Shown piece by piece: positions 3,876 to 29,268 of a DNA stretch of 37,487 bases. A program made the translations under genes and the position numbers. The stretch's first letter is position 1. Each line of letters begins with the position of its first letter. Below the pieces are notes generated by a model. That model was not told where the DNA came from and did not search any database. It was given only the letters and a program-made list of their open reading frames with translations. Source of the stretch: Candidatus Hydrogenedentota bacterium (GTDB taxonomy: Bacteria > Hydrogenedentota > Hydrogenedentia > Hydrogenedentales > SLHB01); assembly GCA_016215105.1 (NCBI GenBank), contig JACRLJ010000040.1, positions 1 through 37,487 on the forward strand, given 5' to 3'.

Positions 3876-5558
3876 GTGCCACTTCGTGTCACAAAGAAAC
3901 TAGGCGGCCCCTCGAGCACACGTCATATGGCGACCGGGGTCGTGGTCTTCGGCGTGCTGTTGTCGGCTTGGTGCTATGGCGAGGAGGTCCACCAGCAGAG
4001 GGAGGGAAAAAGCATGGTAGACATGCCGCTGGGTGTGGACGATGCAGGATCAAGGACGCCGATCTGGACGGATAAGGCCGCGCAGGACGCCTACCGTGCG
4101 ATGGGCTTCGACTTTCTCTCGTTCCATCTCTATCCCCAGACCTCCCAGGAAAACTTGCGCGCCCTGGACGGGTGGGCCCGGGAGACCGGCACCCAGTACG
4201 TCCTGAACCAGGAGGGCGCCGAACGCCGAGCGGGGGCGCCAGAAATCTTTCCCAGCGCGGGTGCCTTCTATCAGCCGGATCGCAGCGTACTGGCGCCGTG
4301 TCTCGATAGCCCGCGGTGGCTGGGCATGGTGTATGACGAACTCGACCACTGTGTCACCAACGGCGGCTGGCCTACCGTGATGCGTCGCGAGTACGCCCCG
4401 TACTTCTACGACGCGAAAGGCCGAACCCTTGACGAGGCCTACGACGGCAACCTGCGCAATGCGGAAATGCTGATGTCGAGAATGTATCCTGGATTTCGGG
4501 AGAACGGGCGTGGCGACGGTCGCGGTCCCGTTGTCGGCGGGGAAAACGTCTTTCCTATCCTGGACCACCTGTTTGCCCGCGCCGGCATCGTGCCGATACC
4601 CAAGTACCTGAAAGAGACAGTGACGCCGGTGCAGGCGGCGGTGGCCATGGGGGCCGCAAAACAGTACGGAACCCAATACTGGGCCTGTCTCGACCTCTGG
4701 TTCACCGAGTACCCGGGGCACCCGCCCTTCGAACTCACTTCGGCGCTCCATCTTGCCTACTGGACCGGCGCCGACCGAGCATATGTGGAGAACTTCCACT
4801 ATCAGGACAGTCTGTACAAGGAGACGCCGGAGGGCATCCGGTTGACGCAATGGGGTGAGGCAGTGCGCGCGTTCCGTAGAGAGTATCTTCCCGCGCATCG
4901 GCGCACGATTTCGATGCGGGATTTCGCGCCCGAGATTGTCATCGTCCGCTTTCCGGACTCGGATTGGGGCCAGGAGCCGACGGGCACATGGATCACAGGG
5001 TGGCTTTACGGCTCGCCCACGCTCCATCGGGACGAACAGACCAGCGACTGGATCCGCATCTGGAACGTGCTCACCCACGGCAAGTTGGTGCCGATCGCTT
5101 TGAACTACAACAACACGCGATTGCCCAGGCCGTACCGGTTCTTCTATCCGGCCAACAACGTCGCCGTCTACGATCATCTCGCGGCGGACCCGAAGCTTTT
5201 CAGCCGCGCGCGGCTTGTGCTCCTAAGCGGGAAGCGGATCAGCCTTGAGTGCATGGGAACGCTCCGGCGTCTGGTGGCGGAGAAGGGCCTGACCGTTGTG
5301 ACGCCGAGCCATCTGGCGCCGGGGGGGCTGGGAAGGACCGGCGGGATCTATGCGGTACACGCCGAGGGCTCAGGGCGGTGGATCGTGACGGATGCCGTGG
5401 ACGCCCCGGAGGTCGTGAAACAACTCGATCCGTATTTGGGCAAAGCGGACGAATTGCGGTACGTCTTCGGAGAGACGCAGGTGGTTTTCCGCCAGCCGGC
5501 TCCGGACGCGCCGGTGACGGTCGAGGTATCGAAGCTGGCCGCGTCGGCCGTGCCGTGA
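3876..5558 (+). CDS. Secreted TIM-barrel protein, probable glycoside hydrolase of unknown family
   Basis: About 560 residues from the GTG at 3876, chosen for the GGAG about 8 bases upstream and its place 19 bp after the sulfatase-like stop. An ATG at 3927 is an alternative, and the frame is open back to 3744, inside the previous gene. Either start yields a signal peptide (MATGVVVFGVLLSAWCYG). The body looks like a (beta/alpha)8 barrel: FDFLSFHLYP, a QEGAE segment, VYDELDHC, QYWACLDLW and a late YVENFHYQD strand. The last 150 residues (KLVPIALNYN to RQPAPDAP) resemble the GATase-like domain that follows the barrel in GH42-type enzymes. Acidic residues are present at plausible strand ends, but I cannot name the catalytic pair. 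It probably acts outside the cytoplasm with the sulfatase-like protein. Confidence 0.7.
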   Translation: MPLRVTKKLGGPSSTRHMATGVVVFGVLLSAWCYGEEVHQQREGKSMVDMPLGVDDAGSRTPIWTDKAAQDAYRAMGFDFLSFHLYPQTSQENLRALDGWARETGTQYVLNQEGAERRAGAPEIFPSAGAFYQPDRSVLAPCLDSPRWLGMVYDELDHCVTNGGWPTVMRREYAPYFYDAKGRTLDEAYDGNLRNAEMLMSRMYPGFRENGRGDGRGPVVGGENVFPILDHLFARAGIVPIPKYLKETVTPVQAAVAMGAAKQYGTQYWACLDLWFTEYPGHPPFELTSALHLAYWTGADRAYVENFHYQDSLYKETPEGIRLTQWGEAVRAFRREYLPAHRRTISMRDFAPEIVIVRFPDSDWGQEPTGTWITGWLYGSPTLHRDEQTSDWIRIWNVLTHGKLVPIALNYNNTRLPRPYRFFYPANNVAVYDHLAADPKLFSRARLVLLSGKRISLECMGTLRRLVAEKGLTVVTPSHLAPGGLGRTGGIYAVHAEGSGRWIVTDAVDAPEVVKQLDPYLGKADELRYVFGETQVVFRQPAPDAPVTVEVSKLAASAVP

Positions 5559-6781: not shown

Positions 6782-8197
6782 TTACCGAATGACTTCCGGT
6801 CGGACCGCTTCGACGACGGGAGCGCGCTTGGTCTGCCCCAGCCAAAAGCCGCTAATCTCTTCGAGCGTGAGGTCCTTGGTTTCGGGGATGAAGCGCCAGA
6901 CGAAGGCGACGCAAGCCATGCAAATGCCGGCGAACAGGAGGTAGGCGCCGCCGCGGTTGCCGAAGCTTTGCTGGAAGTAGTCGGTCACGTTGGGGAAGGC
7001 CCACGTGACCACAAAGGATGACGTGAACAGGCAGAAGGTTACAATGCCCATGCACTTGCCACGCACGCGGTTCGGAAAAATCTCGGACACGACCACCCAA
7101 CCCACGGGCGCGAGGCTCAGGGTGAAGGAGCCGGCGGCGACGAGCATAGCGAGCAGGACTATCCACGTCGAGCTATTGGTGAAGAACGAATAGGCCATGA
7201 TCAGATGGCCCAGCGCCATGCCCGTCGTGCCAGCCATCAGGATCAGCCGGCGCGGCGACTTGGCCACGAGCCAGAAGCTTACGATGGTGCAGAAGAAGAT
7301 GAGGAAGTACACGTAGAGGGAATTGAGCAAGGCGTTGGAGACGCTGCCGATGCCGGCTTCGACCAGGATCTTGGAAGCGTAGATCAGGATCATGTTCACG
7401 CCGTTGACCTGCTGGAAGATCATGAGGATGCAGGCCACGAGCAGCGCGTACCGGATGCCCGGCTGCCCGAGGTCGCGGAAAGAGCCCGTTTCCTGCCCCA
7501 GTTCGGCCTTGATCTCGGCCAGTTCCTCGTCCGCCCGCGCCGCGCCGTTGATGCGCGCGAGGACAGCGAGGGCCTCTTTATCCAGGCCCTTGGATGCAAG
7601 CCAACGCGGGCTGCGCGGGACGAAGAGCAAGCCGATAGCGAGGGCCAGGCTGGGTACCGCCGCGGATGCGAACATCCAGCGCCAGTGTCCCCCGTAGGAC
7701 AACAACAGCGCCACCACGATCGACATGACGATGCCGACCACGATAGAGAGCTGGTTCACGACCACCATACGTCCGCGCATCCGGGCGGGCGAAATCTCGG
7801 CGATGTACATAGGCGAGATGCCGGTGGCGAGGCCCACGCCGATGCCGCCGATGGCCCGGGCTACGTCAAACTCGATCGCGGACGTGACAAGGCTGCACCA
7901 GATCGCAGAGACCAGGAAGAGACCGGCTGCGACGTATAGAGAGTTGCGCCTCCCGAACTTGTCGGCCGCCCATACCGAGGCGAAGGAGCCGAGTATGCAC
8001 CCGAAAACGGCGCTGCTGGTCAGAAGGCCCAGGTTGGCTCCGGCGAAGTACTTCTCAAGATAGAGCATGGCGCCGGTAATGATGCTCAGGTCGTACCCGA
8101 ACAGAAAGCCGCCGACCGCGGCGGTGACCGCTACGAAGTACAGGTAGAGGTTGCTGACAGGACCCTTGCCGGCCGTCCCCAAAGTCGTTTTTGCCAT
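6782..8197 (-). CDS. Sugar porter family MFS transporter
   Basis: 471 residues from the ATG at 8197, which has AGGAAGGAG upstream; the frame is open further upstream, but that part belongs to the end of the Gfo/Idh gene. Twelve hydrophobic segments are visible. Sugar-porter signatures are present: FGYDLSIITGAM in TM1, KFGRRNS in loop 2-3, PRSPRWLASKG in the central loop, QQVNGVNMILIY in TM7, SEIFPNRVRGK in loop 10-11 and PETKDLTLEE at the end. The family imports monosaccharides such as xylose, arabinose, galactose or inositol, usually with H+, across the inner membrane. The substrate cannot be read from the sequence. Its place between an oxidoreductase and a glycosidase suggests it imports the sugar they work on. 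Confidence 0.93.
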   Translation of the reverse strand: MAKTTLGTAGKGPVSNLYLYFVAVTAAVGGFLFGYDLSIITGAMLYLEKYFAGANLGLLTSSAVFGCILGSFASVWAADKFGRRNSLYVAAGLFLVSAIWCSLVTSAIEFDVARAIGGIGVGLATGISPMYIAEISPARMRGRMVVVNQLSIVVGIVMSIVVALLLSYGGHWRWMFASAAVPSLALAIGLLFVPRSPRWLASKGLDKEALAVLARINGAARADEELAEIKAELGQETGSFRDLGQPGIRYALLVACILMIFQQVNGVNMILIYASKILVEAGIGSVSNALLNSLYVYFLIFFCTIVSFWLVAKSPRRLILMAGTTGMALGHLIMAYSFFTNSSTWIVLLAMLVAAGSFTLSLAPVGWVVVSEIFPNRVRGKCMGIVTFCLFTSSFVVTWAFPNVTDYFQQSFGNRGGAYLLFAGICMACVAFVWRFIPETKDLTLEEISGFWLGQTKRAPVVEAVRPEVIR

Positions 8198-8244: not shown

Positions 8245-9408
8245 TTATGCGCAGACCGGATGCAGGCTCTCGGTCCGGACCCATTGACCTGACTCGGCCG
8301 AGCGATACCCCGCCACCATCACCTTCTGCAGCCGAATACCCTCCTCGAGGGTGGGGCTCGGCGTCTTGTCGAGCGCGATGCACTCAAGAAAGTTGTACAG
8401 GCAGTGCATGTGCGCGCGGATCCAGCCGATGCTGAACTTGGGATTGGGGAAACCACCGCCCGGGGGCGGATACTGCTGGACGCACTCGATCTTCTTGAAG
8501 CCGCGCAGGCCGCCTTGCGGGGCGCACGGATCCCGCACGTCGTAGACCTCGAGCCAGTTCGGCTCCATAAGGTTGAACCGCATGGCCCCGAGCTCGCCGT
8601 GGATCTCGAAGCGCAGTTCGTCGCAGATGCCCGTGGCCATCTTCGTGGCTTCGAGTGTGCCGATGGCGCCGTTGGCGTGGCGAAGGAGCATGAGCGCGAC
8701 GTCGTCGGTGTCCACGGCAACCAGGGTTCCGGCATCCTTATTCGGCCGTTCCTTGATGAAGGTTTCGCACAGTACGTTGATGGTGGCGATCTCTCCCACA
8801 AGATGGGTCATCATGTCCAGCGTGTGCGCCCCCATGTCGAACAGCGATCCCCCGCCGCCCTGGCTCTTGTCCGACTTCCAGTGCAGGGGTTTATTCGGAT
8901 TGATGTTGCTGGAGTGGATGTAGCCGCCGCGGTAGTGGAAGATGCGGCCCAGGAATCCTTCGTCCACCAGTTGCTTCGCGCGCATGGTCGCCGGGAAATA
9001 GCGGTATTGCAGCACCGTCTGGCTCTTACCCATGTACCCCGTTGTGCGCATCGCGTCGAGAACATCTTCGGCGTCTTCGAGCGACCCCGCCACCGGCTTA
9101 TCGCAGTAGATGTGCTTGCCCGCGCGGATGGCCGCGATGAGTTGATCCTTATGAAAGCGGTTGGGCGAGCTGACGGTCACCACGTCGATTTCGGGGTCGT
9201 CGATCAGTTCGCGGTAGTCGCTGACGATCTTGCGGTAGTACCCCATGGATTCCGCGGCTTCCCGCCCCGTGGGCGTGCAAATGGAGATATGCTTAATCCG
9301 GAACGGCAGCGGTTGGTAGAACAGGGGCATGTTGATGAGGCCGTACGTATGAGTCTGGCCCATGAAACCGGCCCCGATGATTCCGACACCCATCTCCGGC
9401 ACGCTCAT
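8245..9408 (-). CDS. Gfo/Idh/MocA family NAD(P)-dependent oxidoreductase
   Basis: 387 residues. A Rossmann motif GIIGAGFMGQTH lies at residues 8-19, and the family's EKP motif appears as YCDKPVAGS around residue 95-103, with Asp in place of Glu. The C-terminal alpha/beta domain has GGGSLFDMGAHTLDMM, carrying the conserved Asp and His of the substrate site. Members oxidise or reduce sugars, inositols and sugar acids with NAD(P); the substrate here is unknown. There is no signal peptide, so it is cytoplasmic. The ATG overlaps the aminotransferase TGA by four bases (ATGA), which points to translational coupling, and the porter follows after 47 bp. The pair may interconvert an amino, keto and hydroxy form of one sugar. 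Confidence 0.92.
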   Translation of the reverse strand: MSVPEMGVGIIGAGFMGQTHTYGLINMPLFYQPLPFRIKHISICTPTGREAAESMGYYRKIVSDYRELIDDPEIDVVTVSSPNRFHKDQLIAAIRAGKHIYCDKPVAGSLEDAEDVLDAMRTTGYMGKSQTVLQYRYFPATMRAKQLVDEGFLGRIFHYRGGYIHSSNINPNKPLHWKSDKSQGGGGSLFDMGAHTLDMMTHLVGEIATINVLCETFIKERPNKDAGTLVAVDTDDVALMLLRHANGAIGTLEATKMATGICDELRFEIHGELGAMRFNLMEPNWLEVYDVRDPCAPQGGLRGFKKIECVQQYPPPGGGFPNPKFSIGWIRAHMHCLYNFLECIALDKTPSPTLEEGIRLQKVMVAGYRSAESGQWVRTESLHPVCA

Positions 9409-10781
9409 GCCAAGAGTTCCTTCTCCGTCTCGCCAATGGCTTCGTCGATGATGTCAAGGCCCTTGAGCAGGGTGTCCTCGTCCATCACGATGGGAGGGCT
9501 CATGCGAAGGATGTGGCCCGCCGGGATCCAGGCCAGCCCCTTGGCGAAGGCCTTCTGGTAGACCAGCGTGCCTGCGTTGTCGAAGGGCTGCTTCGTAGCC
9601 TTGTCCATCACCAGTTCGATACCCATCAGGCAACCCCTGGCGCGGACGTCGCCGACGATGCGGTGCTCGTTCAGCATGCGGCCCATGCGCTTGAGGGCCA
9701 CTTCGCCCAAGCGTTGGGCGTGCTCGAGCAGGCCTTCTTCCTCGATCACCTCGGTCGAAGCGAGGGCGGCCGCGCAAGCCATGGGATTGCCGCCGTAGCT
9801 GCTCGACGCGCTGATGGTCTCGAAGCTTTCCTTGTAGGGCTCGCGCACTGCGACGCCGGTTACAGGGAATCCATTTCCAAAGCCCTTGCCGATAGTGACC
9901 ACGTCGGGCACAACACCCCAGTGCTCCGTGCAGAGCCACTTGCCGGTGCGTCCCCAACTCGTTAGGACTTCGTCGGCCATGAGGAGGATGTGACGCTCGT
10001 CGCAGAGCTTGCGCAGTTTAGGAAAGAAGTCGTCCGGCGGCATGATGGTGCCGCCCCAGCCCTGGATGGGTTCGAGGCAGAACCCCGCCACGTCGTGGAC
10101 GGTGCCTTTGTCGAGGTACTCCTCGAAGAAGGTTATGTAGGCGTCGGTGTCGATGGCGCCGTCGGTTTTTTTCCATATGGGGCGGTAAGTGTCGGGCCGC
10201 GGGAGCATATGCATGCCAGGGACTCGCGTGGCGCCGTAGCAAGCGGCGCGAATGTGGCCGAGTGAAACCGCCCCTTGCGTCTTGCCGTGGTAGTCGTAGA
10301 AGCAGCTCAGAATCTCATTGTGCCCAGTCGCGGCCCGCAACACGCGCAGCCCCGCTTCGACAGCTGTTGTCCCCGAGTCGTAAAACTGGAAACCGTTCAA
10401 GTCACCCGGCAGAATCTCCGCCAGTTTTTCGACAAGCTGGGTCTTGATGGGCGTGGTGAAGTCGTGGGCGTTCATAAGGGTGCGGGCGTACTTTGCCACC
10501 GCTTCGCTGACTTTGGGGTGGCAGTGCCCCAGGGTGGTTACGTAGATTCCCGATGAGAAGTCAATGTATTCGTTGCCGTCGACGTCCCGCAGGATGCACC
10601 CTTCGCCCGACTCGAACGCGACCGGGAAGAGCTTGACCTGGCCGCTGAGCCCCCTGAAATAGCGAGTGCAGCGCTCGTGGTAGCCCTTCGACTGGGGCCC
10701 AGGAGGCGGTACTACTATTTTGGGGTAAGCCCCCACGTCTACCTTAGCCCATTCCAGTGTCGAAAACTCGGTAATCTCCAT
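9405..10781 (-). CDS. Class III (PLP-dependent) aminotransferase
   Basis: 458 residues from the ATG at 10781, with AGGAGG six bases upstream; the upstream extension of the frame to 11024 lies in the promoter region and is rejected. Fold-type I class III features: DGNEYIDFSSGIYVTTLGHCHP near residues 68-89, YDSGTTAVEAGLR around 134-146 binding PLP phosphate, Asp270 in LMADEVLTSWGRTG pairing with the pyridine nitrogen, and Lys299 in TIGKGFGNGFP forming the Schiff base. The family includes GABA, ornithine, dialkylglycine and amino-sugar or aminocyclitol transaminases. It is the first gene of a sugar-uptake operon and is coupled to a Gfo/Idh enzyme, so a sugar or polyol amine is a more likely substrate than an amino acid; that is inference. 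Confidence 0.9.
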   Translation of the reverse strand: MEITEFSTLEWAKVDVGAYPKIVVPPPGPQSKGYHERCTRYFRGLSGQVKLFPVAFESGEGCILRDVDGNEYIDFSSGIYVTTLGHCHPKVSEAVAKYARTLMNAHDFTTPIKTQLVEKLAEILPGDLNGFQFYDSGTTAVEAGLRVLRAATGHNEILSCFYDYHGKTQGAVSLGHIRAACYGATRVPGMHMLPRPDTYRPIWKKTDGAIDTDAYITFFEEYLDKGTVHDVAGFCLEPIQGWGGTIMPPDDFFPKLRKLCDERHILLMADEVLTSWGRTGKWLCTEHWGVVPDVVTIGKGFGNGFPVTGVAVREPYKESFETISASSSYGGNPMACAAALASTEVIEEEGLLEHAQRLGEVALKRMGRMLNEHRIVGDVRARGCLMGIELVMDKATKQPFDNAGTLVYQKAFAKGLAWIPAGHILRMSPPIVMDEDTLLKGLDIIDEAIGETEKELLA

Positions 10782-13685: not shown

Positions 13686-13790
13686 CGGCGTCGCGATCGC
13701 TACGGACCCGGGGAACGCGTCGCTGGAGACCGGCGCGAGCGCAAGCAGAAACCAGTAGGATGTCACGATGAACGAGGAGACGTGTACGCG

Positions 13791-15683
13791 ATGCCGAAGC
13801 GATTGTCGGTGTTTAGCCTGATGGTTTTGTCCGTGGCCTCCGTTCACGCGGCCCCTGAAAAGGGGACCGTCGACGTGGGCGTGCAGCCCATGCATCCGGC
13901 ATCGGCTTTGCTCCTTGGACAGAATCTGGAGACGGCCCTGGATACGGTCCCCGGGATGCTCACGGACCGCCTGGACAATCCGAAGTTCTTGGGGCCGCCG
14001 GACTCCGTAACGGGCATCGCCCCGGGCTGGCGGCACAATAGCGACAACATGAACGAGGTGCGGTGCGAGTTGACGCCCGGGGCCGGCATGTCCGGCAACG
14101 CCGCGCAGTTGATCCAGAACTTCAACGCCAAGTACGCCTTTGGCATCCTTCAGAACAATCGCCAGGTGCGCGCGGGCGAGAAACTCGAAGTCGAGCTGTG
14201 GGCGCGTGCGTGGAATACTCCTGCCACGCTCAAGGTGGGCCTATTGCCGCTTCCGAGCAGCTTGCCGCCGTACTCGGAGGCGACACTCGAGATCAAGACG
14301 TCTTACTACGAGCGCTACACCGCCGTGCTCACCTGCCCCGCCGACGATAACAAGGCCGCCTTCTATTGCACGCTCCAAGGCCTCGGCGCCGTGTGGGTTG
14401 ATCAGATCCATCTGCGCCCGGTGGGGGAGGGCAACGTCAGTCCGGACGTCGTGAAGCGGTTCGCCGAATTGCGGATCCCGGTCCTGCGCTTTCCGGGTGG
14501 CGTCGCGACGACGGTGTACCACTGGCGGCTGGGTACCGGCCCACTGGAGTTGCGGCCCACCCTGCCCGATCCCGCCTTCAAGAATAGGATGTTCTACGAC
14601 TTCGGTACCGACGAGTTCCTGCAGCTCTGCCTGGACCAGAAGATAGTGCCCCACATCACCGTCAACATCGGGTTCGGTACGCCGCAGGAGGCGGCCGATT
14701 GGGCGCGCTACTGCGCCGACTGGTACCGAAAGCACAACGCCGAACCGCCGCCCGCCTACTTCCAGATCGGCAACCACCCGTACCTCGGGGCGGAACTTGC
14801 GCACATGACGCCCGAGATGTATGTGCAAGCGTTGAAGGCGTACGTGCCGGGAGTCCGCGAGGCCTACCCCGGTGCACGGATCCTGGCGGTTTGTGATCCC
14901 TACGACGGGAATTGGCAAAACACTCTGCTGGACCAAGGGGCGGGTCTATTCGACGTCATCGCGCTCCAGGCGTATGCGAGCCAGCCCCCGGAAATGGGGG
15001 GCGCGGCGGATGCCAAGGCCGTCGACCCCAAGGGGGGCGAGGTGCGCATGGCGGCCTTGTCGGAAGGTGCGGAAGGGCTGGGGGCCGTCATCCACAAGAC
15101 GGCCGAAGCGGCTCGCAAGCGTGGATTGCCGGCGAAAGTGTCGTTTGTCGAATGGAACCTCTGGGGCCACGCGTCTCACCGCGACGGAAAGAACTTCTAC
15201 GAGCCGTACGACGTGCAGCATGCTTTGTTCGTTTCCATTATGCTCCACCAATTCATGCGCCTGGCGCCCGAGATGGAGGCGGGCTACTTTTACCACCTCC
15301 TGAACCCGATGGGGATGTACATCCACCGCGGTCCGGAAGTGAGCGAGTCCTGCATGGTGGACGTCTTCAAGCTCTATCGGCCCGCCTTGCCCGGCGACAT
15401 CCTGCCGGTGACCGTAACAGGACCGACTCTGGGCGGTCGGCCGGCCGTGGACGCCGTGGCCGTGCGCAATGCCGAAGGGACGTGGATCTACTGCGTGAAC
15501 CTGCATCCGTCGGCGGCCGCGGAGATGGAGCTTACGGGCCTGAAACCGAATGGTTCCGAAGTCGTCACGATGTCCGGGGCCGCGCCGGACGGGCAGTTCA
15601 CGCGCGCGGTCAAGACGCTGACAGGCGGCCCGTTGAGCCTGCCGCCGCTGTCGCTGGTCCGCGTCCACGTGAAAGCGCCGTAG
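13791..15683 (+). CDS. GH51-like alpha-L-arabinofuranosidase homologue with altered active site
   Basis: 630 residues from the ATG at 13791, with AGGAG 11 bases upstream; an in-frame GTG at 13782 is too close to that site. A signal peptide is clear (LSVFSLMVLSVASVHA, then AP). Residues 30-210 look like a carbohydrate-binding beta-sandwich. The barrel has VLRFPGGVATTVYHWRLGTG, a hallmark of GH51-type arabinofuranosidases, and DEFLQLCLDQK. The usual GNE acid/base motif reads IGNHPY, so His329 occupies the Glu position, while the nucleophile motif EWN is kept (Glu454). A C-terminal beta-sandwich follows. It may be a glycan-binding pseudoenzyme, may use a different proton donor, or the alignment at this loop may be off. 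It lies about 105 bp after the isomerase gene. Confidence 0.82.
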   Translation: MPKRLSVFSLMVLSVASVHAAPEKGTVDVGVQPMHPASALLLGQNLETALDTVPGMLTDRLDNPKFLGPPDSVTGIAPGWRHNSDNMNEVRCELTPGAGMSGNAAQLIQNFNAKYAFGILQNNRQVRAGEKLEVELWARAWNTPATLKVGLLPLPSSLPPYSEATLEIKTSYYERYTAVLTCPADDNKAAFYCTLQGLGAVWVDQIHLRPVGEGNVSPDVVKRFAELRIPVLRFPGGVATTVYHWRLGTGPLELRPTLPDPAFKNRMFYDFGTDEFLQLCLDQKIVPHITVNIGFGTPQEAADWARYCADWYRKHNAEPPPAYFQIGNHPYLGAELAHMTPEMYVQALKAYVPGVREAYPGARILAVCDPYDGNWQNTLLDQGAGLFDVIALQAYASQPPEMGGAADAKAVDPKGGEVRMAALSEGAEGLGAVIHKTAEAARKRGLPAKVSFVEWNLWGHASHRDGKNFYEPYDVQHALFVSIMLHQFMRLAPEMEAGYFYHLLNPMGMYIHRGPEVSESCMVDVFKLYRPALPGDILPVTVTGPTLGGRPAVDAVAVRNAEGTWIYCVNLHPSAAAEMELTGLKPNGSEVVTMSGAAPDGQFTRAVKTLTGGPLSLPPLSLVRVHVKAP

Positions 15684-15793: not shown

Positions 15794-17206
15794 TCAGTCT
15801 TCGCCGTGCAGTGTGGCATACAAGCGCCGGCAGACGGGGTTGGGAGTATAGCGACGCCTGACACGGCGCCAGTCGGCTTCGGCGCTGCTAGGCAGGTTGC
15901 CGAAGGCGCGGGCGGCCATCCACGCCGCTCCCTGGCAGGCCGGCTCCTCGCACGTCACCCGCACCACCTCGAGGCCGAGCCGGTCGGCTTTTAGCTGCAG
16001 CCATATATCGCTACGGGCGCCTCCGCCCGTGGCCAGGATGCGTTCGGGGCGCCGTTCCTTCCCCAAGCGCGCGATCAGGCCATCAAGCGCCGCGGCGTTC
16101 GCTTCGAGGATGGCGCGCACAAAGTGCCCCTGTGTATGGACCTCGCTCGCCCCCTCGAAGGCCGCTTCCTTCGTCAAGCCGGACAGAACGGGCCGAGCAC
16201 GAAGGCCGAGGCACCCCGGTGGCACGGTTCCAGCCAGGGTGATGAGTTCGGGGATAGACGCGTCGGGCGCGAAGTGCGTGCGGTACCAGTCCAGGTTGGA
16301 CGAGCCGGATTCATTGAATGTCAACTCGTAGAATCGGTCCGGCTGGTGCGTGGGACCGATGCAGCGATTCTCGTACGGCTCGAACCGGGCGTTGAGAGCC
16401 ACGGCGGCCAAGACGGTGCCCGTGGATTCGCAAAACTCCGCTAAGGACCCGAGCCCGGCCCCCACTGCGGCCATGTAGTGATCCAGGCCGCCCAAGACAA
16501 GTAGTGTTCCTGGACGCAAGCCGATGCGTTGCGCGCCCTCTCCGGTCAGGGGACCCGCCGGTGTGCCGGGGCGCCGCGGCGCGGACAGTGTGTTGATCGC
16601 GATGCCAAAAGGGTTGAGACCCTCGCTCCACCACGTGTTGCAGCGTTGATCCACAAGCCCGAGAAGCGACGCTGTGGACAGGTCACCCAGCCTATTTCCG
16701 GTCAGACCGTAGACTAAATGATCGGAGATCGTCTGGACCATTCTCACCCGGCGCCAGAGCGAAGGTTGCTCGCGCCGGAACCAGGCCAGCTTGTACGCGG
16801 CGAATTCGGCGCCGCCTACGCCCACTCCGGTGATATGCAGGAAGTCGGCGTGGTGCCACGGGTCGTCGTTCGCGCCCACCAATTCGGACGCACGGCGGTC
16901 CGGCCAGAGGACCAAGGGTGTCAGAGGAGCGCCTGAGGCCTCGAGCAGAAGGAAGCTGTTGGCTTGGGACGAATAGCTGAGGCCAGCAACAGCTTCGGGT
17001 TTTATGGCGGCGGCCGCAAGGGATTCTGCGACGGCCTGCGAGAGCAGGCGCCAAAAGGCGGCTATCGGCAGCTCGCATCGACCGTCCGACTCCTCCTTCT
17101 CGACTGAGACGCGCCCGAGACCCAGCAGCCGCCCTCGGTCATCGAAGAGTCCCGCTTTGAAGAACGTGGTGCCGAGGTCAATGCCCATGAAACTGCGCAT
17201 CCGCAC
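15794..17206 (-). CDS. FGGY-family carbohydrate kinase
   Basis: 470 residues, ATG at 17206 with GGAGGAG eight bases upstream. The N-terminal phosphate-binding motif FMGIDLGTTFFKAGLFD lies at residues 6-22. GGLDHYMAAVGAG carries the conserved catalytic Asp. The C-terminal signature ATGGGARSDIWLQLKADRLG, followed by EEPACQGAAWMAA, closes the ATP site. The family phosphorylates ketoses and polyols such as xylulose, ribulose, fuculose and glycerol with ATP. It is the last gene of a minus-strand operon, 38 bp after the ceramidase-like gene. It probably phosphorylates the product of the isomerase encoded at 12.3 kb, though the two are in different transcription units. The sequence does not fix the substrate. 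Cytoplasmic. Confidence 0.92.
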   Translation of the reverse strand: MRMRSFMGIDLGTTFFKAGLFDDRGRLLGLGRVSVEKEESDGRCELPIAAFWRLLSQAVAESLAAAAIKPEAVAGLSYSSQANSFLLLEASGAPLTPLVLWPDRRASELVGANDDPWHHADFLHITGVGVGGAEFAAYKLAWFRREQPSLWRRVRMVQTISDHLVYGLTGNRLGDLSTASLLGLVDQRCNTWWSEGLNPFGIAINTLSAPRRPGTPAGPLTGEGAQRIGLRPGTLLVLGGLDHYMAAVGAGLGSLAEFCESTGTVLAAVALNARFEPYENRCIGPTHQPDRFYELTFNESGSSNLDWYRTHFAPDASIPELITLAGTVPPGCLGLRARPVLSGLTKEAAFEGASEVHTQGHFVRAILEANAAALDGLIARLGKERRPERILATGGGARSDIWLQLKADRLGLEVVRVTCEEPACQGAAWMAARAFGNLPSSAEADWRRVRRRYTPNPVCRRLYATLHGED

Positions 17207-17244
17207 ATCTCCTCCAGAATCGCCCTGGAAATATCTACCGCTGG

Positions 17245-18606
17245 TCAGCGGACAGGCGAATACGGCGCCTGCGTGGCCTCTCTCTGCGCGCGCAGTTCCC
17301 CGAGCAGTTCATCCGTGCGATTGACCAAAAGCACTCCGTTGCGGTAGTCGAACAGGGCGTTGCCGGCCTCGTAATACCCCTCAAGCACGGCTTGCTCGGT
17401 GGCGATGTATCCCTGCAATTCGCCGTTGGCGAGGGAGATGACGAAGGTGTTCGGATGGCGACGCCTCACCTCGAGGCCGTACTCGACAAAGATTTCGCCG
17501 GGCCATGCCACGAAGGTCCAGGGACCGATACCGATGACTTGGATCTCGGCGGGTTGACATTCGTCGTAGACAGACCCGAGGCGATTGGCGGCGGCTGCCA
17601 CGGCAAGAGCCAGAGTCTCCTCGGCGCCGAACCAGTCGCACTCGGCCGTACGCACTTCCTTGGCAGCAGCGCTCTCGGCCTTCAGGCGCTGGAACCGGGC
17701 CCGGGCCGCTTCCAGCCCCGCAGCGGCTGCTTCCACGCTCGGTAGGCGCCGCGGAATGAGGTCGAGGTTGGCGTGGCAGAAGGCGATGTCGGCTCGTTTC
17801 CGGTATTTGATCGTCGGAAGAACGGCCTCGATACTTCGGCCAATGTCTTCACCCAAGGCCCGCGCCGAGGCGAAGGTGTTGTCGGCGACGACGTGCCGCG
17901 GGCTCTGGTTGCCTGCCGGACCGATGTGGTGCAGCACGGGGCAATCGGGGCCGAGCACGCGTTCCTGCAAGTACCCCCGGACCATGCCGGGAAAATCCGC
18001 CGTGATGAGGGTCGAGTCCTCGTGCAGCACCGTCGGATGGAGGCAATGAACGAGCATGCAGGCCACGTATCGGCCATCGTCGATACTGCGTACGACGAGC
18101 ACGGGAACCTCCGGGTCCGCGGGATCGGCAGGATCGTGGCGGTTGGTTCGAGTGTGGTCGGTGTGTGCGACGGCGAGCCCTAGTTGCGCCGGCACGGCCT
18201 TGCGCTGCGCATTCAGCGCCGACGCGACCATGCGCGTTTCGAGGTAAGCAAGGTATGCCGGATCCGCTTTGGGGATGGTCGGGTCCGAGGCGTTACTCAG
18301 GATGTCGACCGTCGTGGGGCCGGAATGGGTGTGCGTGGCCGAGATCAAGATATGCGATTCCGGAACTCCCGAGATTTCCGCGATCTTGCGGCGTACGCGC
18401 CGACAGAGCGCTTTGGAAACGTAAATGATGTCGTTGGCCAGGATGAGCGCTTCACAGGATCCCTCGCGCAGGTACAGGGATGACGTCAGTAATGGGTCGT
18501 GGATGCCTGTACTGTATCGCTCCCTGTGAGGGTACCCGTAGAGGAACTGCGAGTCCCGAGGTGTAATGTCCGCCACCGCGGCGCCTGCCACGAATTCTAT
18601 TTTCAT
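17245..18606 (-). CDS. Neutral/alkaline non-lysosomal ceramidase-like amidohydrolase
   Basis: 453 residues, ATG at 18606 with AAGGAG five bases upstream. GAAVADITP opens the domain. SATHTHSGP (His92, His94) and HCLHPT (His187, His190) match the zinc site of neutral ceramidases, and GPAGNQSPRH (Ser235) matches the loop with the nucleophilic Ser. It is shorter than classical ceramidases (about 650-750 residues), lacks their C-terminal Ig-like domain, and has no signal peptide, so it is probably cytoplasmic. Known members cleave the amide bond of ceramide; bacterial relatives in glycan loci have mostly unknown substrates. It sits between an orphan glycosidase and a sugar kinase, which suggests N-deacylation of a sugar or of a glycolipid product; that is inference. 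Confidence 0.88.
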   Translation of the reverse strand: MKIEFVAGAAVADITPRDSQFLYGYPHRERYSTGIHDPLLTSSLYLREGSCEALILANDIIYVSKALCRRVRRKIAEISGVPESHILISATHTHSGPTTVDILSNASDPTIPKADPAYLAYLETRMVASALNAQRKAVPAQLGLAVAHTDHTRTNRHDPADPADPEVPVLVVRSIDDGRYVACMLVHCLHPTVLHEDSTLITADFPGMVRGYLQERVLGPDCPVLHHIGPAGNQSPRHVVADNTFASARALGEDIGRSIEAVLPTIKYRKRADIAFCHANLDLIPRRLPSVEAAAAGLEAARARFQRLKAESAAAKEVRTAECDWFGAEETLALAVAAAANRLGSVYDECQPAEIQVIGIGPWTFVAWPGEIFVEYGLEVRRRHPNTFVISLANGELQGYIATEQAVLEGYYEAGNALFDYRNGVLLVNRTDELLGELRAQREATQAPYSPVR

Positions 18607-18665
18607 GTTGTCTCCTTCAGTAATTACTTCACCCGAGGCGCCTTCCTCGGAACCGCCTCACCTCG

Positions 18666-20966
18666 CTACGGCATCGGCGTTGGCATGAAGAGACGCGTCC
18701 AATCCGGCGTAATGCGTTCCAGCGCCTCGGGAATCGGACCATCCCATCCCTGAATGATACCCCGCCAGACACCAGAGGCCCCGCGCCACAAGGCCAAATC
18801 CATGCGGTCATTCAACTCAATGGCCAGATCCGGGCCGCGGAACGATTTCAGTGCTCCCCCCGCCAATGCCTCGACCTCGCCGCGCTTGCTCAGCCGCACG
18901 GCGGCGACGCCCACGGCGTCGAAGGTTACGGATCGCCCCTGAATCATAACGGTCTGCTGAATCGGGTCACCCATGACATCGTGTTCGCCCGAGGCGAGGA
19001 TGACGGTGCCGTCGATGAGTCGACACTTGCCGCTCGCCCTCGGCATCATCGATGCTGGGAAAATATCCGACCCGTGCATCGTACAGGTCGTTTGCGGCTC
19101 GACGCCAGCGCGGCCCAAGCTCTCGACGATTCTCGCCACGCACGTGGGCGGGTCCCAGGCCTCCATCTTCGCTGGCAGGGCGCCGTTTCCATCAAAGGAT
19201 TCCCCGTCAAAGCCAAGTGTCCAGTCGCCGACGCGGTACAAGGCGGTGGCGCCCGATTCGGCGGCCCCGCGCAGGAACTTCGCCAGATTAGGTCGCTCGA
19301 ACTGCGGCTGGTAGAGAATAACGGCCGAATACCGCTGAAGACCGTAGGCCACGCGGCCGTCTTCGGCAAGGCGCAATGCTCCGTTGGCAATCTCGCTGCT
19401 GGGGATGAGATCCGCGTAGTATCCCTGCTCCCACAACCCGTTCGTCAGTTCAAGGCCCGCGTCGCCCAAGCCGCCAGAAGTCCAGTTCAAGGAACGAGGG
19501 TGGCCGAAGACTACCGCCACCGGGCAATCGATGGGCGTCTTGGAGACGTAGTTCAGCAACCGCACGCGGCAATCGGCTTCGAGGAGGCGGCCGGAGAGGA
19601 GTGAGGTGGTGAACTTGTCCCATGGGTGAGGGAAGAGAGGGTGGAAATTCATCCGGCCCCCGCCGAGGACGTGCCGCCACAGGTCTGATTCATAGGCTGC
19701 GACGGTGGGATCATAATATTGATTGTACCAAACGGGGCTGCCCCATTTCTTGGCGAGGGCGGTGCGTACGCAGAAGGGTGTGCTCTCGTCGGTCTGAGCA
19801 AGGTCACGTCTGGCAACCCACCAATCGAGACCGTTCTTGAAAACCTCTTTCGCGCAGATAGCGGGGTACCACGTGGCATGCGTAGCCACAACCGCCTCGG
19901 GGCCGAAAACCTCTTTGACCGAGTCGTAGAAGCACGCCTCGATCTCACCATTCCGTTGCCAGAACATTTCTAAGTAGTGGTTGATGGCGGTCGTGCGCTC
20001 GGCCTCGCGGCCGGCCTCGCCGCGCGACATGAGCAGCAGGTCTCGGGTCAAGTCCCGGTTGGGCAGCCGCTTGGCGTAGGCATCGGCCATGAAGTGAGAG
20101 AACCATAGATCGTCCGTGCGCGCTTCAGGACGGCCGGGGAAGCCCCACTCGTCCTTGCAGCCCCCTGCCAGCGGCACGTCGGCATAGCTGCGCATGATCT
20201 CGCGCTCGAATTCAGCCACATGAGGGCTGAACACATCGGGTGTGAAGAGGCCGAAGGCCGCCAGCACACACGCCATCCGCCGAGAGTCCTGAGCGGCGCA
20301 GGTCACGGCGACCTTGAGGCCCTTCGGCGTGGACTCGACGACGCGGCACCGGCCGGTGATCTCGATAACGGAGTTCGGCTGAACTCCACCAGGACCCAAC
20401 TCGTACGAATACACGGCGAGTAGTCGTTGCGAAATGACGTCGTAGCCGCGCGCGCGAAAGGTGTAGTGATCGCCCAGCGGCAGCGCATCGATGAACAGGA
20501 TCGTCTCGCCCGAATCTTGGAGGGGCGTCTCCCGCAGCCGTACGAGTTCCTGGTGCTCCCCGGGGTAACGGTCCGTAAAGGCTTGGCGGGCAAGCCGGAC
20601 GTCGAAATCCAGGACCAGATACATGCCGCGGGCGCGCGCATACAGCGCGGCTGCCTTGAGCTGGTCGTGGACCTTCGGGTCCGTGATCTCGACGGGATGG
20701 CGGATGCTTGTAGTCAGCAGGCGGTATCCGGAGTGTTTCGAATGGAGATCGACAAAGCGCTTGTACCCATCCGGTTCGAATTCCTCGCCCGTCCAAAACC
20801 AACTCCCAATACCAGGCCAGGGTTTGGTGATCACGCTGCCGGAAGTAGGAATCCAATCGCCCTCGTAGGCCCTTGTTGCGTAGTCGTCGGCCGTTGCGCT
20901 CATCAAGTACCCTCCCGCAAGAAACAGACCGAGCAACCCTAGCGCCACCGTGGTCCTTGAACGCAT
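18666..20966 (-). CDS. Large secreted TIM-barrel protein, probable glycosidase of unknown family
   Basis: 766 residues from the ATG at 20966, with GGAGGG upstream; the frame is open to 21095 but that extension lacks a ribosome site. A signal peptide is visible (VALGLLGLFLAGGYLMSATA). Residues 60-135 start a barrel (YRLLTTSIRH, MYLVLDFDVR). A beta-rich insertion occupies about 140-225. GGCKDEWGFPG at 268-278 offers Glu273 as an acid/base candidate. A later segment, VVATHATWYPA and SPVWYNQYYDP, continues the barrel, and a GATase-like domain with YSAVILYQPQFER precedes a small C-terminal sandwich. The architecture recalls GH42-type beta-galactosidases, but no family signature is certain. It is the first gene of the operon with the ceramidase-like protein and the kinase. 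Confidence 0.7.
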   Translation of the reverse strand: MRSRTTVALGLLGLFLAGGYLMSATADDYATRAYEGDWIPTSGSVITKPWPGIGSWFWTGEEFEPDGYKRFVDLHSKHSGYRLLTTSIRHPVEITDPKVHDQLKAAALYARARGMYLVLDFDVRLARQAFTDRYPGEHQELVRLRETPLQDSGETILFIDALPLGDHYTFRARGYDVISQRLLAVYSYELGPGGVQPNSVIEITGRCRVVESTPKGLKVAVTCAAQDSRRMACVLAAFGLFTPDVFSPHVAEFEREIMRSYADVPLAGGCKDEWGFPGRPEARTDDLWFSHFMADAYAKRLPNRDLTRDLLLMSRGEAGREAERTTAINHYLEMFWQRNGEIEACFYDSVKEVFGPEAVVATHATWYPAICAKEVFKNGLDWWVARRDLAQTDESTPFCVRTALAKKWGSPVWYNQYYDPTVAAYESDLWRHVLGGGRMNFHPLFPHPWDKFTTSLLSGRLLEADCRVRLLNYVSKTPIDCPVAVVFGHPRSLNWTSGGLGDAGLELTNGLWEQGYYADLIPSSEIANGALRLAEDGRVAYGLQRYSAVILYQPQFERPNLAKFLRGAAESGATALYRVGDWTLGFDGESFDGNGALPAKMEAWDPPTCVARIVESLGRAGVEPQTTCTMHGSDIFPASMMPRASGKCRLIDGTVILASGEHDVMGDPIQQTVMIQGRSVTFDAVGVAAVRLSKRGEVEALAGGALKSFRGPDLAIELNDRMDLALWRGASGVWRGIIQGWDGPIPEALERITPDWTRLFMPTPMP

Positions 20967-23123: not shown

Positions 23124-25193
23124 ATGAGTAGGTTTCCAGCGTGCCTGGCGATAGCCTGCGTGGTGTTGGCGGCGGTCCATCAGGCCGCGGTAGGAGAGGA
23201 TACCTTGCCCGTCACTCAGCGTGCCGCAATTCTGGTGGTCATCGACGAGGGTTCATCAGAAGTAGAGCGGACGATTGCCGACGCCTTCGCCCGTAGGCTT
23301 CACGCGCGCAGCGCCGCCGTCGCCACGGTCATGGCCGCTGGCGAGGCCGGGCGACTGGACCTATCGGCCGCTGGCGCCAACGGGCTGGTTGTGCGGACTG
23401 GCGTGGTGGGTCGCGGCGGGCAGACCGACCGCTTAATCAAAGAGCTTGGCGTCACGGCGTCGGAGAAGCCGGAGGGCTACACCCTCGACGTACGTCGGGC
23501 CCGGCCTGAAACGTTGCAGAAGTTCCCGATGGCGTCGTGGGAGGCGCTGGTCGCCGGGCACGACGCGCGCGGCATGCTTTACGGGCTTGGTAAGCTGCTG
23601 TGCGTGGCGGACTACGGCCCGGGTGGCGTCACGGTAAAGCCGTCCTCGCTTACGGATGCCCCTGCGATCACCCAGAGGGGCGCCTATTTCGCTTCCCACT
23701 TCAATAACTTCTACGAGCGGGCCCCCGTCGACGAAATCGAAAGCTACGTCGACGACTTGGCCTTTTGGGGCTTCAATCATATCTGGACTTGGTTCGACAT
23801 GAATTGGTACCCGGAGGATTTCGACAAGGCCCCGAACAGCCGCGGGATGCAGTTGCTCGATCGGGTTCGCCGGATTAACCAGCGCGCCACCGGTCTTGGT
23901 CTCACGACCGGCCTCATCGGGATTGCCAACGAAGGTTTCAAGAAGCAGCCGCCCAAAGAACTACTGGCCGACATGTCGGAAAAGCGCGGTGGCTACTACC
24001 CTGACAGCACGATATGCCCCAGCAAGCCGGGGGGTATGGACCTAATTCTGAAGAACCGGCGGAAGGTTCTCGAATTGGTCGGGCCCATCGGCATCTTCAT
24101 CGCCTGGCCCTTCGATCAGGGCAGTTGCGGCTGTTCGCAGTGCAAGCCGTGGGCGGCGAAGTTCCTGGCCATTTGCCCCGAGATCGCGCGGGAGGTCAAG
24201 CGCGCCGATCCGAACGCGCAGTTCTACGTGTCAACGTGGCTGTTCAACGACGAGGAGATGAAGCAGGTCCGGGCGCTGATGGACTCGGGCGCCGACTGGC
24301 TCGGGGGCGTCGTGACCGATACGACCTGGCCGGGCCGGTTTGATCCGCCCGCTCGGTTCGCCCGGTTCGTGTTCCCCGAGATAAGCATGTCCGGCAGCCT
24401 GTTTACGGGCTACGGCGGCTCGGGGGCCAACCCCATGCCGCACAAGTTCGTGGAAGAAGCCCGGCAAGCCGCGAAGCACGGGTACGGCGCGGCCCTATAC
24501 TCCGAAGGCATCTACGAAGACCTCAACAAGGTCACGTGGGCGTGCGCCCTGTGGGACCCCAAGCGTACCGCCGAAGACATCGTGCAGGAGTATGCGAGGT
24601 TCTACTTTGGGCGCGAGCATCTCAAGGATTGGACCGACCTGATCCTGGGCCTCGAGGCGACCTGGCCGCCCGAGAACTTGCCGGCCACCAAGCCCGGCGC
24701 CGTTGACACGCTCTATGCGTCCGCGGAGCGTTTGGAGAAGGTGTTGCCGGCCGATCCGGCGAGTCACGTGCGTTGGCGATACTTGAGAGATCGCGCCGAG
24801 ATGGACTGCAAAATGCTGCGTATCGGATCGGACGCGGAGCTGCTTGGGCAGGCCAAGCACGTTTTGGACGAGACCGGGTACACGCAGGACTTCGATCGGC
24901 TACGGCATGAACTGCGGCAATTCCGCGTGCAGGTTGTGAAACGTGCGGACGCCCTCAAAGACCTGTTCCAGACGCACTGGGCTTACCTCGAGCGGGCGCA
25001 TCTGGAACGCTCGACAGGTCTCGTCATCACACCGCCGGCCTTCATTGGCCAGCGGGACTGGGATGCGTTACCGGGAATGCTGGACCGCGCCTTGGCCGAA
25101 ACCGATAACGAAGCCATGCGCAAGACCCTCCTCAGCGGGTTCAAGGAGTGGTTCTGGCACAACAATATCACGATTGACTTCTTGTTCCTCTGA
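23124..25193 (+). CDS. Secreted glycoside hydrolase-like protein (GH20/GH67-type N-domain plus TIM barrel)
   Basis: 689 residues, ATG at 23124 with AGGAGGT five bases upstream. The signal peptide is FPACLAIACVVLAAVHQAAVG. Residues 30-165 resemble the N-terminal domain of GH20 and GH67 enzymes: EGYTLDV, then AGHDARGMLYGLGKLL. The barrel follows from RGAYFASHFNNFYE, with LAFWGFNHIWTWFDMNW, GIFIAWPFDQGSCGCSQCKPW (three Cys in a short loop, possibly a metal or disulfide site) and FYVSTWLFNDEEM. A helical C-terminal region of about 170 residues completes the protein. The catalytic residues cannot be named. The next gene starts 84 bp downstream with its own ribosome site, so this is probably the first gene of an operon of secreted glycan-active proteins. 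Confidence 0.75.
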   Translation: MSRFPACLAIACVVLAAVHQAAVGEDTLPVTQRAAILVVIDEGSSEVERTIADAFARRLHARSAAVATVMAAGEAGRLDLSAAGANGLVVRTGVVGRGGQTDRLIKELGVTASEKPEGYTLDVRRARPETLQKFPMASWEALVAGHDARGMLYGLGKLLCVADYGPGGVTVKPSSLTDAPAITQRGAYFASHFNNFYERAPVDEIESYVDDLAFWGFNHIWTWFDMNWYPEDFDKAPNSRGMQLLDRVRRINQRATGLGLTTGLIGIANEGFKKQPPKELLADMSEKRGGYYPDSTICPSKPGGMDLILKNRRKVLELVGPIGIFIAWPFDQGSCGCSQCKPWAAKFLAICPEIAREVKRADPNAQFYVSTWLFNDEEMKQVRALMDSGADWLGGVVTDTTWPGRFDPPARFARFVFPEISMSGSLFTGYGGSGANPMPHKFVEEARQAAKHGYGAALYSEGIYEDLNKVTWACALWDPKRTAEDIVQEYARFYFGREHLKDWTDLILGLEATWPPENLPATKPGAVDTLYASAERLEKVLPADPASHVRWRYLRDRAEMDCKMLRIGSDAELLGQAKHVLDETGYTQDFDRLRHELRQFRVQVVKRADALKDLFQTHWAYLERAHLERSTGLVITPPAFIGQRDWDALPGMLDRALAETDNEAMRKTLLSGFKEWFWHNNITIDFLFL

Positions 25194-28182: not shown

Positions 28183-29268
28183 ATGTGTAGCGTCACGTGT
28201 TCCGCATGCTTGGTGGTTAGTCTTCTCGTTTCACGAGTGGCAGTTGGCGCCGAGCCCTCCGCGCCCGCAAGTGCGCTTGAGATGGTGGTGGAAGCGGGTC
28301 AGGTCATCGGCAAGATCAACGCCGGACTTTTGGGCGTGAACCACGGCCCCTTGGCGGTCTACGAGAGCCACGCCATCTTCAACGGCAAGAATGCGGTGGA
28401 CCTGTCTGACCGCTACAAAGAGATCGGCGTCCGTTCCGTGCGCTTGGATGAGTTCGGCGCCATCGACATCCAGTCGTTGTTTCCGGATTTCACCGCCGAC
28501 GCCGATAAGCCGGAGAGCTATCGGTTCTGCCCCGCCGATGCGTACCTGAAGGCCGTCCACGATGTCGGCGCAGAGACTGTGTTTCGGATGGGGTACAGCG
28601 AGAAGCCCAACCGGGTCGATCCGCCCAGCGACTTCGAGCAGTGGACGAAAGTCATGGTGCAGGTCGTGAAGCACTACAACGAAGGATGGGCGAATGGCTA
28701 CCGCTGGGGCATTCGGCATTGGGAGGTGTGGAACGAGCCCAGCGGGCTGGGCTGGACCGGTACCCTGCCGGAATACTGCCGCCTCTATGAGACGGTCGTC
28801 AAGGGGCTCAAGGCGTACGACCCGAACCTGCTTGTAGGCGGACCGACCCTCGGCTCCCCCGACGCGCAGAAGGATAAGGACTGGGGCGAAGGCTTTATTC
28901 GCTACTGCGCCGACCGGAAACTGCCGCTCGACTTCTTCTCGTACCACCTATACTTCACCAAGCCGCAAGAGCAGATCGAGCACGCCACGCGCCACCGCAG
29001 GAACCTGAACGCGGCAGGCTTTCACGACACGAAGATGTTCCTCACGGAGTGGGGTTGGCTGAGCGGCCGCGCGTATCCGCCGCCCGTCGAGGATTTGGCC
29101 TCCGCCAAGGATGCCGCGGCTGACATCGCGGCTATGGCCATCCTGCACGATCGCGTCGAGGGGGCTCACTTCTACGTCGGTGGCGCGATGGCCGATTATC
29201 CCTGGGGCCTCTTCGACTTCGTCCGCGAGTCGGGCAAGGTCTCGGCACGGCCTCGCAAGTCGTTCTAG
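28183..29268 (+). CDS. GH39-like glycosidase, C-terminally truncated
   Basis: 361 residues from the ATG at 28183, with a signal peptide (CSACLVVSLLVSRVAVGA). The barrel has RSVRLDEFGAID, HWEVWNEPSG with Glu185 as acid/base, FFSYHLY, and LTEWGW with Glu289 as nucleophile. These match GH39 beta-xylosidase and iduronidase-type enzymes of clan GH-A. The frame stops at TAG (29266-29268) just before AFKAYRILTE, a stretch that normally continues the last barrel helix, so a Tyr codon probably became TAG. The catalytic barrel is nearly complete, and a shortened enzyme could still fold; loss of the C-terminal sandwich makes this uncertain. See the remnant downstream. Confidence 0.75.
   Translation: MCSVTCSACLVVSLLVSRVAVGAEPSAPASALEMVVEAGQVIGKINAGLLGVNHGPLAVYESHAIFNGKNAVDLSDRYKEIGVRSVRLDEFGAIDIQSLFPDFTADADKPESYRFCPADAYLKAVHDVGAETVFRMGYSEKPNRVDPPSDFEQWTKVMVQVVKHYNEGWANGYRWGIRHWEVWNEPSGLGWTGTLPEYCRLYETVVKGLKAYDPNLLVGGPTLGSPDAQKDKDWGEGFIRYCADRKLPLDFFSYHLYFTKPQEQIEHATRHRRNLNAAGFHDTKMFLTEWGWLSGRAYPPPVEDLASAKDAAADIAAMAILHDRVEGAHFYVGGAMADYPWGLFDFVRESGKVSARPRKSF

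Follow-up and report, generated by a model that had tools for sequence, protein, structure and literature searches.

Why does a homologue of neutral ceramidase stand between the genes for a glycosidase-like protein and a sugar kinase? The question arises from a stretch of 37,487 nucleotides (the window) of Candidatus Hydrogenedentota bacterium (contig JACRLJ010000040.1), which is one contig of a 6.7-Mb assembly (GCA_016215105.1). An earlier note, made from the DNA letters alone, had described this ceramidase-fold protein, here CER, as a short cytoplasmic homologue in a sugar operon and had suggested an N-acyl amino sugar or a glycolipid fragment as its substrate. The three open reading frames (ORFs) that it had delimited are all present on the minus strand, and the nature of their products is as the note had described it, in the case of the "orphan glycosidase" at the level of the fold. 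We consider CER to be, somewhat more probably than otherwise, a cytoplasmic zinc amidohydrolase of the neutral-ceramidase fold that moved from lipids to amino-sugar catabolism, a judgement that covers the whole route proposed below. The genes and the CER residues under study are as follows.

15794-17206, minus strand: FGGY-family sugar kinase, 470 aa, with an alternative ATG start at 17200; matches PF00370 and PF02782
17245-18606, minus strand: CER, 453 aa, a single domain; matches PF04734
17407-17409, minus strand: Y400 of CER, equivalent to human Tyr579
17494-17496, minus strand: E371 of CER, a zinc ligand by alignment, equivalent to human Glu540
17899-17913, minus strand: GNQSP loop of CER with S235, by alignment to neutral ceramidases
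18316-18336, minus strand: THTHSGP motif of CER (H92, H94), invariant, by alignment to 2zws/4wgk
18666-20966, minus strand: secreted glycosidase-fold protein upstream of CER; no Pfam match, Foldseek matches to GH106/GH42/GH164

The minus-strand run from 20966 to 15794 has gaps of approximately 60 and 40 bp, and Shine-Dalgarno-like sequences precede the starts of CER and the kinase. Judged by its position, the kinase is probably cotranscribed with CER.

CER keeps the catalytic residues of neutral ceramidase

CER matches the Pfam family Ceramidase_alk (PF04734) with 42.5 bits, above the gathering cut-off of 32.1, and scores 37.8 bits against the NCBIfam neutral ceramidase equivalog NF041649, far below its cut-off of 1200. 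Its N-terminus, MKIEFVAGAAVADITP, has no hydrophobic leader, and neither the secretion signal nor the C-terminal domain of neutral ceramidase is present. A scan of 84,980 species genomes found 234 relatives, of which the best 80 (48-58% identity) were retained. Together with the window and six loci of the same phylum, these make up 87 CER loci, which we compared with 36 loci of other ceramidase-like paralogues from the window's phylum. A hydrophobic N-terminus occurs in 3 of the 87 CER-clade members versus 24 of 35 paralogues.

The CER motifs THTHSGP, HCLHP, GNQSP, PGE and GYIAT align with the neutral ceramidases of P. aeruginosa and human. Human His194, His196, Arg257 and His303 map to H92, H94, R156 and H190 of the window's protein, and human Glu540, Tyr579 and Tyr591 to E371, Y400 and Y412. 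S235 aligns with the AGN-x-SP serine of Pseudomonas neutral ceramidase, and by this route we equate it with human Ser354. None of the eight residues named here (H92, H94, R156, H190, S235, E371, Y400 and Y412) varies among 86 clade members. The zinc histidines and serine loop noticed earlier are retained. The zinc ligands of neutral ceramidase, which we take to be His, His, Glu and Tyr, correspond to H92, H190, E371 and Y400. With these ligands and His196, Arg257, Tyr579, Tyr591 and Ser354, whose catalytic roles in the human enzyme are summarised in PMC6952831, the full residue set is matched in CER by alignment.

The fold agrees with this. A CER profile built from 37 members and searched against solved structures found only the P. 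aeruginosa and human neutral ceramidases (E ~1e-12). The AlphaFold (AF2) model of CER has a pLDDT of 92.3 and a pTM of 0.92, and Foldseek matched this predicted model only to neutral ceramidases (E 1e-22, TM 0.72-0.74). CER thus shares the catalytic-domain fold and the mapped catalytic and zinc residues of neutral ceramidase (P. aeruginosa 2zws/2zxc; human ASAH2 4wgk), but differs from it in its roughly 16% identity, its missing signal peptide and C-terminal domain, its sugar gene context and the clade-specific charged residues R30, D108, H195, E196, R237, R319 and E322.

CER is 44-58% identical to the members of its clade, which separates from the paralogues with an SH-aLRT of 94 in a tree that counted one distant second copy from locus L039 with the CER clade. 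S235 is kept in 100% of the clade versus 20% of the 35 same-phylum paralogues, and the CER clade therefore has the fuller catalytic set. Most ceramidase-like paralogues of the window's phylum (L046-L056, L137-L141, L144-L163) keep the His and Tyr residues and lack the Ser354 equivalent, and about two thirds of them carry a leader. Another pairing of the ceramidase fold with aminotransferases occurs in the window's own genome, where a second operon (L054:3100-8298, G000:C74) encodes a DegT-type aminotransferase, a ceramidase-like protein, a class III aminotransferase and a further ceramidase-like protein.

CER is linked to amino-sugar genes across phyla

The neighbours of close CER homologues reveal a strongly conserved link with sugar genes. 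An FGGY kinase is found in 71 of the 87 CER loci versus one of the 36 paralogue loci (p = 3e-17). The two genes share a strand in 70 of these 71 loci with a median gap of 10 bp, and lie at most 250 bp apart in 65. A NagB-like gene (62/87 versus 0/36), a NagA-like gene (58/87 versus 0/36), a class III aminotransferase (57/87 versus 3/36), DeoR/GntR regulators (56/87 versus 0/36) and a Gfo/Idh dehydrogenase of the window's type (35/87 versus 1/36) are likewise associated with CER. DeoR homologues alone were detected in 45 of 80 named loci. The aminotransferase and Gfo/Idh genes co-occur (p = 2e-06), and within the window's phylum the NagB-like clade is present in exactly the six non-window genomes that have the CER clade. 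The commonest gene set combines two putative deacylases (NagA and CER) with two putative amine-removing enzymes (the NagB-like protein and the class III aminotransferase).

The clade spans at least eight phyla (Planctomycetota, Verrucomicrobiota, Kiritimatiellota, Bacteroidota, Spirochaetota, Chloroflexota, Acidobacteriota, KSB1 and the window's phylum). Its carriers include the isolate genomes of Mariniphaga sediminis, Maribellus luteus, Dysgonomonas sp. and Massilibacteroides vaginae, which make our reading of CER testable now.

Further sugar genes occupy subsets of the CER loci. DhnA/LacD-type aldolase, PFK, SIS, TIM-family and glycerate kinase genes point to what may be ordinary sugar-phosphate breakdown; the class I aldolase and PFK are confined to a few CER clusters, and glycerate kinase adjoins CER in three loci. 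We rejected the idea that PFK replaces the FGGY kinase, which L063, L068 and L075 had suggested, as L058 has both and L063 retains an FGGY fragment. In L071 a GH109-like gene lies between CER and the FGGY kinase; the GH109 family is named for alpha-N-acetylgalactosaminidases.

The window carries a variant of this cluster, and L101 is similar. Both have CER, the FGGY kinase and the following genes, given here with their positions in the window.

6782-8197, minus strand: MFS sugar porter; PF00083, TIGR00879 above cut-off
8245-9408, minus strand: Gfo/Idh/MocA dehydrogenase, overlapping the aminotransferase by 4 bp
9405-10781, minus strand: class III aminotransferase, the conserved partner; PF00202
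11298-12071, plus strand: DeoR-family regulator; PF00455/PF08220
12294-13685, plus strand: fucose-isomerase-like protein, a distant full-length match to SftI

There is no NagA or NagB gene near CER in the window or L101, and the window's genome has only distant homologues of these (29-31%) elsewhere. The fucose-isomerase-like protein scores 93 bits against NF048012 (sulfoquinovose isomerase SftI), below the cut-off of 700, and its gene context differs from that of the SftI/L-fucose isomerase family. SftI-like genes occur in five of the 87 CER loci and never with a NagB-like gene (p = 0.0014). The fucose-isomerase-like protein thus appears to replace NagB.

Partner proteins

The window's kinase has both FGGY domains at full length (FGGY_N 119.9 bits, FGGY_C 60.9 bits, both above cut-off). 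Compared with known FGGY kinases such as xylulokinase and the AI-2 kinase LsrK, it falls below every curated equivalog cut-off tested, including that for xylulokinase (TIGR01312, 181.9 versus 380.25). The class III aminotransferases in CER loci are mostly 60-83% identical to that of the window, whose closest relatives of solved structure include amino-acid racemases as well as gamma-aminobutyric acid (GABA) aminotransferases. In the Mariniphaga cluster, a single 770-aa ORF (L112:4129-6441) joins an Amidohydro_2-like N-terminal part to a class III aminotransferase C-terminal part. The MFS porter is also present in L066, L076 and L101.

The fit of the NagA-like enzymes to the NagA model is good (191-194 bits), though it stays below the cut-off of 225.65. 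The NagB-like proteins reach 51-60 bits of a cut-off of 236.9 and are not orthologous NagB. L059:8690-9619 and its relatives illustrate this NagB-like clade, with a length of approximately 310 aa, the motif GPGWTGHLAF and 55-67% identity across phyla.

A proposed route and its alternatives

With NagA-like, NagB-like and aminotransferase genes as neighbours, an amino sugar is a better candidate for the substrate than a glycolipid, which narrows the choice offered by the earlier note. Considering the two possible deacylases, the two amine-removing enzymes and the variant in the window and L101, we infer an N-acyl amino sugar, possibly a doubly aminated one. CER would cleave the N-acyl amide on the imported amino sugar, and the class III aminotransferase would then pass the freed amine to glutamate. 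The glutamate dehydrogenase gene that adjoins the aminotransferase in two loci only (L058 and L078) is expected if amino groups go to 2-oxoglutarate, the direction of transamination assumed here. The Gfo/Idh enzyme may reduce the ketone left by the aminotransferase, and the FGGY kinase would phosphorylate the sugar, which an aldolase or glycolysis would then break down. A second nitrogen, that of a 2-acetamido group, would be removed by the NagA and NagB-like enzymes in the loci that have them. In the window and L101, the fucose-isomerase-like protein would act in their place as an aldose-ketose isomerase, which is consistent with a sugar without a 2-amino group. Of the glycosidase, deacylase and kinase route suggested earlier, the linkage of deacylase and kinase stands, while the glycosidase is absent from all other clade loci; the route also extends beyond three genes and includes the aminotransferase, the dehydrogenase and the regulator.

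Several observations weigh against this route. The linkage p-values take no account of shared ancestry, although the same gene set recurs across phyla in varying order, which speaks against synteny that was simply inherited. The aminotransferase is not a universal partner, as eight of ten Bacteroidota loci are without this type. More than one subfamily is represented among the Gfo/Idh neighbours, which are 22-49% identical to that of the window, and the NagB-like clade has Thr for Asp in the DGH motif, which makes its reaction uncertain. NagA could also account for all deacetylation and leave CER a different reaction.

In one such reaction, CER would be an esterase or lactonase whose substrate, a sugar lactone or an O-acyl sugar, arises in the same pathway, for example after oxidation by the Gfo/Idh enzyme, while NagA performs the N-deacetylation. 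The frequent Gfo/Idh gene beside the aminotransferase and the NagA-like genes in two thirds of the CER loci fit this idea, yet CER retains every mapped amidase residue of ceramidase, the window and L101 have CER and the aminotransferase without a nearby NagA, and no more than 35 of the 87 loci have a detected Gfo/Idh of the window's type. We therefore regard it as rather unlikely. It is unlikely, too, that CER acts on a sugar conjugate (a glycosylamide, aminoacyl sugar or uronic-acid amide), freeing from it an amino acid or another acyl moiety, and that the aminotransferase then uses the released amino compound rather than the sugar. The solved relatives of the aminotransferase and the glycerate kinase genes next to CER agree with such a reaction, but the NagB-like, NagA-like, kinase, PFK and aldolase neighbours indicate that the sugar moiety is catabolised, and no peptidase or amino-acid pathway recurs in the CER loci.

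The close packing of CER with NagA and NagB, and of the kinase with CER, would also suit an enzyme that deacylates NagA's own 2-N-acyl hexosamine, either before phosphorylation or with longer acyl groups, in a route that runs parallel to the fructose-6-phosphate branch. This explains neither the aminotransferase nor the loci in which CER and the aminotransferase occur without NagA or NagB, and we find it improbable. A true ceramidase or (glyco)lipid amidase, as the fold and catalytic residues might imply, is very hard to reconcile with a cytoplasmic protein that lacks the C-terminal domain and scores so low against the equivalog model, and with neighbour clusters among which no recurrent lipid gene was identified. 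Two known pathways were also rejected. The deacetylase and deaminase of the GlcNAc1A oxidative pathway belong to other families, and genes for a sialic or nonulosonic acid route (four BNR ORFs, DHDPS in approximately nine loci) are too rare to define a pathway.

Within the amino-sugar route that we prefer, our favoured guess for the CER substrate is a diamino sugar. It is possible, if doubtful, that the cluster represents an undescribed catabolic route for diamino (N,N'-diacylated) sugars, for example the 2,3- or 2,4-diacetamido sugars found in bacterial glycans. Both nitrogens would be removed by the NagA-like and the ceramidase-fold deacylase, whose folds are unrelated, together with the NagB-like protein and the class III aminotransferase, and the window and L101 would represent a mono-amino variant that uses an isomerase instead of NagA and NagB.

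Relation to described pathways

Like the NagA/NagB pathway of N-acetylglucosamine catabolism, the commonest CER cluster combines a NagA-like deacetylase with a NagB-like protein, and it also has a kinase and a regulator of the DeoR or GntR/UTRA type. It differs from that pathway in the addition of CER, the class III aminotransferase and the Gfo/Idh enzyme, and in the separate clade of its NagB-like protein; the window's cluster has neither NagA nor NagB. The oxidative chitin pathway (ong cluster) also groups a cytoplasmic deacetylase, a deaminating enzyme and a sugar kinase, but its deacetylase OngB is of the D-aminoacylase type, and a ceramidase homologue, FGGY kinase or aminotransferase is not reported for it (PMC9537276). 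Our literature search, which left most subscription journals outside, found no published description of the CER cluster and no paper that joins ceramidase with FGGY or aminotransferase genes, or non-lysosomal ceramidase with sulfatase clusters. One paper with both ceramidase and NagA was an unrelated proteomics study.

In bacterial records, the usual label of PF04734 proteins is "neutral/alkaline non-lysosomal ceramidase", and they are taken for lipid enzymes. The CER clade is tied instead to amino-sugar genes, which suggests that many bacterial "ceramidase" annotations may hide an unstudied sugar pathway. If so, a lipid-amidase fold has been reused for sugars, many annotations would be corrected, and polysaccharide degraders would share a widespread and unstudied nitrogen-sugar pathway.

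Glycosidases and the wider region

Two small adjacent proteins without a family, of approximately 142 and 146 aa, recur near CER clusters in several phyla (for example at L042:9150-10015, L122:3020-3954, L132 and L069); one member gives only a sub-threshold ATC_hydrolase match, and we assigned the pair no identity. A distant variant of the CER set is found in L162 (G067:C54), where CER (30%), FGGY kinase (31%) and class III aminotransferase (42%) homologues occur together.

Two further carbohydrate genes lie on the plus strand of the window.

13782-15683, plus strand: GH51-like secreted arabinofuranosidase-type protein, with no link to CER seen in other loci
23124-25193, plus strand: putative glycosidase with a weak hexosaminidase-like match

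The glycosidase-fold protein at 18666-20966 has a signal-peptide-like start. Its homologues occur in 13 of 68 genomes of the phylum, of which only the window's has the CER clade. Since it was found in one of the 87 CER loci, the window's own, we rejected it as a member of the conserved unit. In a comparison that covered window positions 1775-31000, homologues of 3927-5558 (no Pfam match), 8245-10781, 18666-20966, 23124-25193 and 28183-29268 lie within approximately 10 kb of each other in another genus (L186, G067:C87). This region also has a GH39 gene, its aminotransferase and Gfo/Idh are 83% and 80% identical to those of the window, and it has neither CER nor FGGY kinase. The wider window region is therefore a glycan-use locus that is conserved in part, and CER and the FGGY kinase appear to have been combined into it. 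Homologues of 23124-25193 are found both within a CER cluster (L064) and beside the class III aminotransferase and Gfo/Idh genes of L186.

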